From Shewanella metallivivens (GTDB lineage: Bacteria > Pseudomonadota > Gammaproteobacteria > Enterobacterales > Shewanellaceae): DNA of 64,000 bases. The stretch is from contig NZ_JAQQPZ010000006.1 in NCBI RefSeq assembly GCF_028750675.1, positions 95,875 to 159,874 on the forward strand, in the 5' to 3' direction. The first letter of the stretch is position 1. Each line of letters starts with the position of its first letter. Position numbers and translations under genes: made by a program. Shown piece after piece: positions 50,630-63,699 of the stretch. The notes beneath the pieces are model-generated. The model did no database searches, was not told the origin of the DNA, and was given only the letters and a program-made list of their open reading frames with translations.

Positions 50630-51148
50630 TTAACTCCGTTGTTTGCTTCGCTTTCTATTAAATTCGCGCGTTTGCAGCGCTAATGTCGTCGATGCGAACT
50701 CTTTCATTACTTTTCTATATACATCGCGCTTAAAAGACACTACCTGACGTACAGGGTACCAATAACTCACCCAACGCCAATCATCAAACTCTGGATGACC
50801 AGAAGAATTTAAATTAATGGTATTATCGTGACCTTTTAATTGTAGTAAAAACCATTTCTGTTTTTGGCCAATGCAAACAGGTTTGCTTTCTTGGCGCACC
50901 AAACGCTTGGGTAATCGATACCTTAACCAAGAACGAGTGGACGTTAAAATTTGTACATGCTCAGGTCTCAGTCCCACTTCTTCATAAAGTTCGCGATACA
51001 TGGCTTGCTCTGCAGTCTCGCCATCATCTAACCCACCTTGTGGAAACTGCCATGAATGTTGGCCAAAACGCCTGGCCCACATAACTTGTCCAAATTTATT
51101 ACAGATAATGATGCCCACATTTGCGCGAAAGCCGTCGCTATCAATCAC
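50630..51148 (-). CDS. rppH: RNA pyrophosphohydrolase RppH (Nudix)
   Basis: Removes pyrophosphate from mRNA 5' ends and so starts RNase E decay. It has 172 residues from the GTG at 51148. The Nudix box is [36 protein letters not shown] and [16 protein letters not shown] are typical. The GTG start is chosen because GGAG lies 5 bp upstream and the protein then reads (M)[11 protein letters not shown], like E. coli. A frame start at 51169 adds seven residues. It leads rppH-ptsP and is divergent from mutH. Confidence 0.95.
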
Positions 51149-51225
51149 ATGGACTCCAAAATTAACCAAATTTTCTATCGTCTGATTGTTTCACAAAGCA
51201 TGCCTATCGGCAAACCTCTATTTAA

Positions 51226-51771
51226 TGTGGATAATTGAATAACAATGTTAACAGAGCTTATTTATCAACAGCTGTTATGCTTTTCTCTGTAGATTATCCA
51301 CAAAATCTGTGGATATCTCTGTTCGAAACTTTGGTAATACTCAATTAGTGGGTAAAAACCAACAAATATCAATTTAATAAACTCACCCAACAAACAACTT
51401 AAAAACTAATAAATACAACATCTTAACCAATAACCCTGTATTGATAAAATCTCGATCGCTGAGATCGAACAAAAAAACAACGACTCTAGTTAAGATCAAC
51501 AACTCGATCTACTACGCGTTAAGTTATACACAAATAACAAGACGTTTTTTAAAAAAAACCAAAGAAAAAGCCATTTTATTGCGTTGACTTGCTCTTTTTA
51601 ATCAGTTAAAGACAAGTATTTTCACAGTTATCCATTAATTCTGTGGATAACTGTGTGTGAAATACTAGGGCAAAACGAGAGTAACTTGGGACAATTCAAT
51701 ATTAAAAACAGCAAAGATTTATAAAAACAAATTAAAACATAAGGTTATAAACTTATTCAATCAAAAAGTTT
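51226..51771. promoter_or_regulatory. DnaA-box cluster in the rppH-mutH gap: DARS2-like locus
   Basis: Perfect DnaA boxes (TTATNCACA) lie at 51226-51234 (-), 51294-51302 (+), 51524-51532 (+) and 51642-51650 (-). One-mismatch boxes lie at 51262-51270 (+) and 51308-51316 (-). The 51294/51308 pair faces head to head with 5 bp between, and 51262 is parallel to 51294. Four GATC sites occur within 56 bp (51454-51509). An IHF-like AATCAAAAAGTTT is at 51759-51771. In E. coli the same mutH-rppH (ygdP) gap holds DARS2, where DnaA-ADP is recharged to DnaA-ATP with help from IHF and Fis. Confidence 0.72.
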
Positions 51772-51895
51772 TACTCACAAATAATGCGCTTATTTTTTGA
51801 GCATTAACACTAATGTCAGTAAACTTGTTATTAATATCGAATACTTGCTAGCATATCAGCAGATATTTCCCCGTTTTTCATATTGATCTTTGCGC

Positions 51896-51929
51896 TTTCA
51901 TTCACTCAGTAATTTCATTCACTCAGTCA
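51896..51929. repeat. 17-bp tandem duplication upstream of mutH
   Basis: TTTCATTCACTCAGTAA is followed directly by TTTCATTCACTCAGTCA (16 of 17 identical), 57 bp before the mutH start. It could be a recent slippage product or a duplicated binding site. Confidence 0.8.
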
Positions 51930-51986
51930 ATGTGTAAGGACGCGTCAATATGACGACTAACATCAATTAAAGGTAATGAAAGTGAC

Positions 51987-52655
51987 ATGGCTAAATCCTC
52001 GCCTAAAGACATTAATGAATTAATGCTACGAGCGCATAATATGGCTGGGATCCGCCTCGCAGACATTGCAATGGACAACCAAATTACTGTTCCGGCAAAT
52101 TTAAGGCGCGATAAAGGCTGGGTAGGCCAATTGATAGAATCTGAATTAGGTGCATTGGCGGGTTCAAAACCGCAGCAAGATTTCATTCATTTGGGCGTAG
52201 AATTAAAAACAATCCCTATCGATAGTCAAGGTAAGCCACTTGAAACCACTTATGTCACAGTTGCTCCACTGGTCAACATTCAAGGGTTAACTTGGCAAAA
52301 CAGCGTGGTGTATCACAAGTTACAACAAGTATTGTGGGTACCTGTAGAAGGTGAACGCAGTATTCCTGTCGGCGAAAGACGAGTCGGTACTCCTATCTTA
52401 TGGCAACCTAACGCGCAGCAAGCACAGCAGCTACAGCAAGATTGGGAAGAAATAATGGAGTTAATCGCTTTAGGCAAAGTGGATAAAATTACAGCTCGCC
52501 ACGGAGAAGTATTACAACTACGCCCAAAAGCGGCAAATAGCCAAGCATTAACCGAAAGCATTGCTGAAGACGGCAGTATCCAGTTATCTAATCCACGCGG
52601 CTTTTATTTAAAAATCGATTTTACCCAACAGATTTTAAATAATGCTTTTGGCTAA
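51987..52655 (+). CDS. mutH: DNA mismatch repair endonuclease MutH
   Basis: Nicks the unmethylated strand at hemimethylated GATC after MutS/MutL activation. It has 222 residues (E. coli 229). The catalytic D-x(n)-E-x-K motif is visible in [25 protein letters not shown], and [35 protein letters not shown] and [12 protein letters not shown] are typical. MutH implies Dam methylation in this organism, which fits the GATC cluster upstream. SD is weak. Divergent from rppH across the DnaA-box region. Confidence 0.96.
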
Positions 52656-63033: not shown

Positions 63034-63699
63034 TTATTTATTCGCAGAGTTCACTAAAAAGTGGCTAAACAATTTGTTTTTTAACTCTGGGTGTTCATCC
63101 GAAAACCTAACCCCTATTGTCATTTCGCCTTCAAGTTGCTGCACCTTAACCGCGGTTCCGGTCAGAATGCCTGACAAGTTTTCATCAATAGAAATGGCCA
63201 CATGTATTTCAGCATCTTGCTCAAGAACCATCGATTTAGGGGCTAAAGTGACAAAACACCCTGTCAAAGAAAAATCGAGCATTTTAGCAATGATCTTATT
63301 GTCGTTGTGCATAATAAACACATCTTGTTCAATATCGACTCGCAGCTGCTCTCTGACCTTTTTCTTAGTGATCGATTTTGGCACGCTAAGGCATAACATA
63401 CGCACTGGATGATTCACCATTGATAAAATAGAGGTCTTAAAGGCAATGATGTCTTTAAAGCCACTGTTCGTCATTGCTCTCACCACAATTTCAGCATTGG
63501 CTAACATATGCTGGTAAGCTTCAGAAAAATCTTTAGTGGGAAATTCAATCAAAATAAAACGGTTGATTTGATAACCAATCAAACTCGAACGAGATTGGAC
63601 TTTTTTACCATTAGCAAAATGGATCTCAACAAACAAATCCATACCAATATCAATTAAGCGCAAATCGTCAAGCAACTCGCTCACTGGTGTTTTTATCAT
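63034..63699 (-). CDS. PilZ-domain protein (YcgR-like architecture)
   Basis: A 221-residue cytoplasmic protein. The N-terminal half (about 15-105) has the beta-rich YcgR/PilZN pattern (IDIGMDLFVEIHFANGKKVQSRSSLIGY). The C-terminal PilZ domain starts near 112 with the c-di-GMP motif R-x3-R in KKVREQLRVDIE and the second motif DFSLTGCFV. It should bind c-di-GMP and act on motility or surface behaviour; the target is unknown. It is convergent with gltD and ends 16 bp after the gltBD terminator. Confidence 0.82.
   Translation of the reverse strand: MIKTPVSELLDDLRLIDIGMDLFVEIHFANGKKVQSRSSLIGYQINRFILIEFPTKDFSEAYQHMLANAEIVVRAMTNSGFKDIIAFKTSILSMVNHPVRMLCLSVPKSITKKKVREQLRVDIEQDVFIMHNDNKIIAKMLDFSLTGCFVTLAPKSMVLEQDAEIHVAISIDENLSGILTGTAVKVQQLEGEMTIGVRFSDEHPELKNKLFSHFLVNSANK

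Follow-up and report, generated by a model that had tools for sequence, protein, structure and literature searches.

The intergenic region between rppH and mutH in this stretch of Shewanella DNA very probably contains the Shewanella DARS2, a known DNA switch by which DnaA, the protein that starts replication, is recharged, and works in the manner of its E. coli namesake. This reading draws on the position of the locus, the geometry, order, spacing and conservation of its DnaA boxes, the presence of genes for Fis, IHF and SeqA in the genome, and a location roughly midway along the replichore. The window (the whole 64-kb stretch that was analysed) belongs to a 4.6-Mb genome in 16 contigs, with the locus on contig C13; the nearest named record is Shewanella basaltis, whose RppH is 97% identical. 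Open reading frames with Pfam NUDIX and MutH matches place rppH at 50630–51169 on the reverse strand and mutH at 51987–52655 on the forward strand.

The gap between the two genes holds four perfect TTATNCACA boxes spanning 425 bp (Table 1), in agreement with the preliminary description, which had also reported two or more near-perfect boxes and a head-to-head pair; we find three sites with one mismatch and a fourth with two, arranged so that there are two head-to-head pairs rather than one. The weak sites at 51320 and 51262, as well as the third box of the pta-linked core described below, end in AACA, not CACA. Dinucleotide shuffling of the 817-bp gap (5000 replicates) left zero, one or two perfect boxes in the richest 425-bp stretch in 4662, 325 and 13 cases, respectively, and never three or more, against the four observed. 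Shuffles of the whole window gave 4.3 perfect boxes per 64 kb, which replaces the earlier estimate of one box in about 33 kb, a figure that presumes equal base use. Since 40 of 100 such shuffles reach the five boxes present in the window (the fifth lies outside the gap, at 63306), that total is ordinary and the unusual part is the clustering. The notion of a chance cluster in AT-rich intergenic DNA might appeal to the base composition of the gap and to the outermost box at 51226, which is confined to 4 of 59 Shewanella gaps, but it is refuted by the shuffles and by the conservation of the right box II, perfect in 59/59, and we regard its probability as negligible. A terminator scan returned two terminator-like sites in the region (51295–51315 and 51469–51451) versus 0.3 in shuffles; the first of these is the left head-to-head box pair itself, so that a role at the RNA level is conceivable for part of the palindrome, a point that counts against the DARS2 reading.

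Table 1 Features of the rppH–mutH region and related loci (positions in the window unless a genome or locus is named; mismatches are to TTWTNCACA).
Feature	Position	Strand	Remarks
rppH–mutH intergenic region with the probable DARS2 ortholog	51170..51986 (817 bp)		ORFs and Pfam
Perfect DnaA box TTATCCACA	51226..51234	-	in 4/59 genus gaps only (L002–L005, closest relatives)
Upstream weak box TTATCAACA	51262..51270	+	one mismatch
Left core box I TTATCCACA	51294..51302	+	perfect; same register as E. coli
Left core box II ATATCCACA	51308..51316	-	one mismatch; head to head with box I, 5 bp
Left core box III position TTTCGAACA	51320..51328	-	3 bp from box II; degenerate, 2 mismatches
IHF-like site	51367..51379	-	one mismatch; ~275 bp upstream of right box II, off the usual place in the genus
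Degenerate Fis site	51467..51481		2 mismatches; copy of a site well kept in the genus
Forward box TTATACACA	51524..51532	+	perfect; taken to be box V
TTGACT, possible -35 of a putative mutH promoter	51584..51589	+	TTGAC columns kept in genus alignment
Right cluster box-I-like site TTATCCATT	51628..51636	+	two mismatches
Right cluster box II TTATCCACA	51642..51650	-	perfect; head to head with the 51628 box, 5 bp
Right cluster box-III-like site TTTCACACA	51654..51662	-	one mismatch; 3 bp from box II
DARS1 counterpart	G000:C1:622584 (L123:1501-1535)		own genome (G000); perfect core match ~390 bp upstream of uvrB
pta-linked core	G000:C1:226291 (L125:1501-1535)		own genome; beside small unclassified lipoprotein gene; also L403, L404
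Short-gap records	L155, L156, L158, L160-L167, L173-L175, L180, L191, L196, L200, L203, L204, L207, L209		rppH beside mutH, gap too short for DARS2

A search of 99 genomes found RppH in 98. The window's genome and its genus account for 60 of the 99 and yielded a set of 59 whole rppH–mutH gaps, one locus (L017) being dropped at a contig end. The preliminary description had named a lack of box conservation in other Shewanella gaps as one observation that would speak against it, and across the 59 gaps the boxes are conserved. Left box I is perfect in 14, has one mismatch in 44 and two in one, left box II has at most one mismatch in every gap, and in 58/59 the two stand head to head at 5 bp with at most one mismatch each (the left boxes were counted wherever they scored best within a 150-bp stretch). 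At the box III position there are two mismatches in 54 gaps and three in five, which counts against the DARS2 reading, and the place itself is conserved in the genus alignment. On the mutH side, the right box II is perfect throughout, the box-I-like site preserves TTATNC in 59/59 (with one, two or three mismatches over the whole box in 11, 41 and 7 gaps) and the box-III-like site has at most two mismatches in 50/59. This mutH-proximal cluster, whose 9-5-9-3-9 geometry is that of a DARS core, is probably a second DnaA assembly site. The forward box was found in 54 gaps and missed by the pattern in five, again a point against DARS2; omitting those five from the spacing count, it lies 117–120 bp from the right box II in 53 of 54 and 132 bp in the other, and the left and right clusters are separated by 331–337 bp in 54/59. 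The weak box TTATCAACA recurs exactly, within 50 bp to the left of left box I, in 55/59, and the DnaA boxes rank among the best-conserved columns of the 59-row alignment. Upstream of rppH, GATTGTTTCACAAAGC (51183–51198) likewise hardly varies within the genus, and E. coli has the same first ten bases.

Two functional alternatives to DARS2 bear on this pattern. It is unlikely that the boxes serve mainly as a DnaA operator that represses or activates transcription of mutH (and rppH). Such an operator would fit the position of the right box II, which lies 200–209 bp upstream of codon 1 of mutH in 39/59 gaps (345 bp in the window) and downstream of the conserved TTGAC, as well as the placement of E. 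coli DARS2 in the mutH promoter by PMC5835720, but it needs neither the left core, some 330 bp further from mutH, nor near-fixed spacings; promoter-like sites, moreover, occur at the chance rate (4 vs 3.9), and the consensus promoter scan does not list the TTGACT at 51584 among its matches. Titration alone, in which the boxes would soak up DnaA without nucleotide exchange, is very improbable: although DnaA occupancy is high in E. coli (PMC11317965 Table 1), both the head-to-head geometry and the Fis site are conserved and titration requires neither. In a search of 60 genus genomes for TTATCCA-N(0-30)-TGTGGATAA, 65 of the 108 distinct places among the matches listed (40 genomes) have the exact DARS spacing, while the wider oriC-type spacing accounts for 38 and other spacings for 5; the 65 are not independent, since many are orthologs of each other.

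The DARS2 reading also calls on IHF and Fis, both of which are encoded in the genome (curated cut-offs are exceeded by Fis and by the alpha and beta subunits of IHF), together with a SeqA gene that passes the Pfam cut-off and whose scanned C-terminal fragment falls below the NCBIfam SeqA cut-off. A Fis match 170–179 bp upstream of the right box II is exact in 28/59 gaps and within one mismatch in 51/59, versus 0.2 and 6.2 in shuffles, while beside the forward box (-40 to +20) an exact match occurs in 0/59 against 2.0 in shuffles. IHF matches with at most one mismatch are enriched at -205 to -245 from the right box II (19/59 vs 8.3 in shuffles), a zone that coincides with the place of E. coli IBS1-2; they number 12/59 vs 8.0 at -118 to -205 and are unenriched at -245 to -330 (8/59 vs 9.9). 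The window's own copies are poor for both proteins, the IHF match lying away from the usual place and the Fis site having two mismatches, and this we count against the DARS2 reading. The IHF-like site reported earlier is thus present as a one-mismatch match at 51367–51379, but not where the genus matches cluster or where E. coli IBS1-2 lie. The reported GATC clustering likewise holds for the window, with five in the gap, a number reached by 20 of 1000 shuffles, but is not conserved: the 59 genus gaps average 1.64 GATC vs 1.43 in shuffles. We therefore rejected a conserved SeqA element, as 22/59 gaps have no GATC at all.

Beyond the genus set, a forward box and a right box II stand 110–135 bp apart at 42 of 80 named loci (14 Shewanella, one Aeromonas and 27 Enterobacteriaceae-type records), at 119 bp in 28, 117–118 bp in 13 and 132 bp in one. 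The earlier proposal that a DARS2-like element is kept as far as Shewanella is sustained by these 42 loci and, in the 59 gaps, by the position, the geometry of the core and the order and spacing of the boxes. At 22 of the 80, rppH lies beside mutH with a gap of 38–150 bp, too short for DARS2 (the Alteromonas, Colwellia and Idiomarina group and others, and one metagenome bin of Shewanellaceae). A further ten carry TGTGGATAA but no forward box 110–135 bp from it (seven Pseudoalteromonas, and Enterovibrio, Marinobacter and Symbiopectobacterium), five have neither, and one (L201), in which mutH was not seen, was left out. Four Pseudoalteromonas loci (L197, L199, L210, L211) have a single core, TTCTCCACA-5-TTATCCACA, in a short gap of some 410 bp. 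In a record named Marinobacter nauticus (L157), which may be contamination, a core-like cluster lies between rppH and mutH, and GATC occurs 11 times in the 594-bp gap. The exact forward-box/right-core pattern matched in 142 of 394 genomes of the order and in none with the backwards control, although some of the matches listed are not DARS2, being an oriC-type pair of 113–115 bp or a few other contexts. Outside the order, 72 genomes have MutH, and the DNA upstream was read in 53 (about 1.4–1.5 kb each, 0.5 kb in one). None of these 53 has RppH beside mutH at E 1e-4, on which basis we rejected DARS2 outside the order, and a scan in the DARS2 orientation found only weak core-like matches, in two of the 53.

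The window's own genome contains further cores of this type. When as many as two mismatches were allowed, a core scan returned 48 matches in the forward and 40 in the reverse orientation, against 19 and 26 in the control; because the control was this high, only matches with zero or one mismatch were considered, and those at DARS2, uvrB and pta were taken further. The uvrB match is perfect (Table 1), and E. coli DARS1, too, is found upstream of uvrB. A 30-base DARS1-like pattern, allowing three mismatches, was found in 78 of 80 genomes and never in the control, not every match being DARS1. UvrB lies beside the core at all 12 Shewanella loci of the DARS1 class among the 30 loci returned and at 16/16 further genus loci, making 29 genus genomes with that of the window, as well as near the core at 7 of 16 loci of other families. 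In 19 genomes, all with UvrB confirmed, the replichore position of DARS1 has a median of 0.93 (range 0.39–1.00). One genome (G010) has DARS2 at 0.87 and DARS1 at 0.39, reversed with respect to its congeners and probably through rearrangement. Another (G003) has two more DARS-spaced head-to-head cores (L421, L422) that adjoin no uvrB, pta or lipoprotein gene.

The third core lies downstream of pta, next to a small unclassified lipoprotein gene, in most of the Shewanella genomes covered. Since the first loci of this class had been found by the core pattern itself, the search was restarted from pta, accepting a 9-5-9-3-9 arrangement whose boxes I and II together have at most two mismatches. A core was found within 1.5 kb downstream of pta (181–1486 bp) at 54 of 58 genus loci versus 3 of 1160 dinucleotide-block shuffles; two loci without pta (L310, L324) are excluded from the 58, and the DNA of seven of the 58 (L315, L317, L321, L325, L327, L328, L330) was first retrieved through the core itself, next to which the best pta match in each of those genomes lies. 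Among the four misses, in two genomes (G013, G025) the lipoprotein gene again adjoins the core, at another place in the genome, and two (G044, G049) have no pta-linked core; in G001 and G059 the core adjoins the lipoprotein gene and pta is further away. The lipoprotein has no Pfam match. Outside the genus, in a sample of 20 genomes of which 17 matched and 16 were read (G073 was left out), the core is present at 3 of 16 pta loci (G067, G070, G078). The core is typically TTATCCACAGAATCTGTGGACAA, with a box-III-like site three bases further; box I is TTATCCACA in 53/54, while box II is TTGTCCACA in 42, TTTTCCACA in 10 and another sequence in two. As box I is near-constant and box II varies, outer pairing is not kept, and no T-run was seen beside the core; a hairpin or terminator was accordingly rejected. 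In 22 genomes the core maps to 0.72–0.82 of the replichore (approximate where the end of pta served as proxy), on the arm opposite DARS2 in 17 of them. Table 1 of PMC11317965 lists no E. coli DnaA peak at pta, and none of the matches listed from the open-licence literature on Shewanella with DARS, DnaA boxes or pta describes a pta-linked DARS site there. The pta-linked core is therefore apparently undescribed and, judged by its sequence, a candidate DARS-type site; it offers a concrete candidate for the 'DARS3' that appears with DnaA as speculation in PMC4585315, and does so in a genus whose laboratory strains are amenable to gene deletion.

How the Shewanella DARS2 would operate can be pictured by analogy with E. 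coli, from which we infer its biochemical steps. At the left core, ADP-DnaA molecules on boxes I and II would associate head to head via their AAA+ domains, with the box III position aiding assembly, while IHF and Fis would bend the DNA between the left core and the forward box; ADP would then be released, and the freed DnaA could load ATP and thereby set the timing of initiation at oriC. The position of DARS2 measured from dnaA (24 Shewanella genomes in which a single contig carries both rppH and dnaA) averages 0.535 of the replichore (sd 0.083), with an outlier at 0.869. E. coli DARS2 presumably lies at 0.41, given the oriC coordinate that we assume. A bolder and tentative proposal, to which we give rather less than an even chance, is that Shewanella recharges DnaA at at least three loci with at least four DARS-type cores. 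DARS1, close to the terminus and upstream of uvrB, would be one of these loci; DARS2, with two cores, would lie at about 0.52 of the replichore, and a 'DARS3' at about 0.76, downstream of pta. On this proposal, the right core of DARS2 and the pta core would both exchange nucleotide.

That the initiator-recharging scheme of E. coli should be laid out almost identically in a distant genus matters because its parts become testable by natural variation, the handles being the 117–120 bp spacing of the forward box, the right cluster and the relatives whose rppH–mutH gap is too short. DARS2 in Shewanella is itself already in print: the Fig. 8 legend of PMC8682772 names DARS2-homologous sequences in Vibrio cholerae and Shewanella denitrificans OS217, a likeness given by published name rather than by base-by-base comparison, and PMC10380432 refers to DARS1- and DARS2-like sequences in many proteobacteria. 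The present locus adds another example. What is new, as far as sequence comparison can indicate, is the second-core geometry of the right cluster, the DARS1 counterpart at uvrB and the putative third core at pta.

Other known DnaA-binding loci are readily told apart from this one. It is not oriC, as the locus is on C13 and dnaA, with an oriC-type box pair some 9 kb from it, belongs to contig C5, nor is it datA, which PMC10380432 places between the glyV tRNA operon and queG, the neighbours here being rppH and mutH. Those same neighbours flank E. coli DARS2, as the preliminary description had pointed out. Its further impression that the box layout differs is not supported: the E. coli gap (NC_000913), scored on box I(+), 5 bp, box II(-), 3 bp, box III(-), has the same three clusters in the same order and orientation, and the layout thus does not differ. 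The left core reads TTATTCACC/CTATCCACA/TTCTTCACA in E. coli, with 1, 1 and 1 mismatches, and TTATCCACA/ATATCCACA/TTTCGAACA in the window, with 0, 1 and 2, so the window has a perfect box I and a degenerate box III where the E. coli box III has one mismatch; the right cluster has 3, 0 and 2 mismatches in E. coli and 2, 0 and 1 in the window. Both gaps also have two weaker pairs in the scan. Left box II, the forward box and right box II fall at gap positions 151, 348 and 467 in E. coli and 139, 355 and 473 in the window, such that the forward box is 119 and 118 bp, and left box II 316 and 334 bp, from right box II, respectively. The E. coli weak box TTATAAACA occupies the same alignment columns as TTATCAACA at 51262, whereas a perfect TTWTNCACA box downstream of the right cluster, at gap position 594, is found in E. 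coli and has no equivalent in the window.

The published functional map of E. coli DARS2 can be laid over this arrangement. The rppH-proximal cluster is the published core, as the 'DnaA box I-III' deletion primers of PMC4585315 flank it and the double boxes of PMC11317965 Table 1 comprise its boxes III+II, with a second double box from the mutH-proximal cluster; the same table gives DnaA ChIP peaks at DARS2 of 78-, 199- and 213-fold over control. PMC4585315 describes boxes 1 and 2 as crucial and states that full activity in vitro requires box 3. PMC4245941 reports IBS1-2 and FBS2-3 to be conserved in related species, and its IBS1-2 fits a pair of one-mismatch IHF sites, 3 bp apart, at 230–258 of the E. 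coli gap. The Fis site of the genus lies about 175 bp upstream of right box II, and E. coli DARS2 has matches at 137 (one mismatch) and 185 (exact), the former of which we take to be FBS2-3. If, as seems reasonable, the E. coli forward box at 348 is 'box V' and the right cluster belongs to the 'right half', then the conserved right cluster of Shewanella falls, by our mapping, in the half (boxes IV–VI) without which plasmid-borne DARS2 is reported still to stimulate initiation in E. coli (PMC4245941). The right cluster also shares its geometry with E. coli DARS1, a single cluster with 1, 0 and 1 mismatches that acts in vitro without added factors (PMC5742627) and lies between bioD and uvrB, so that both the geometry and the neighbouring gene are common to it and the Shewanella uvrB site. 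The spacing of 5 bp between boxes I and II and 3 bp between boxes II and III is the same in the window, in E. coli DARS2 and in E. coli DARS1.
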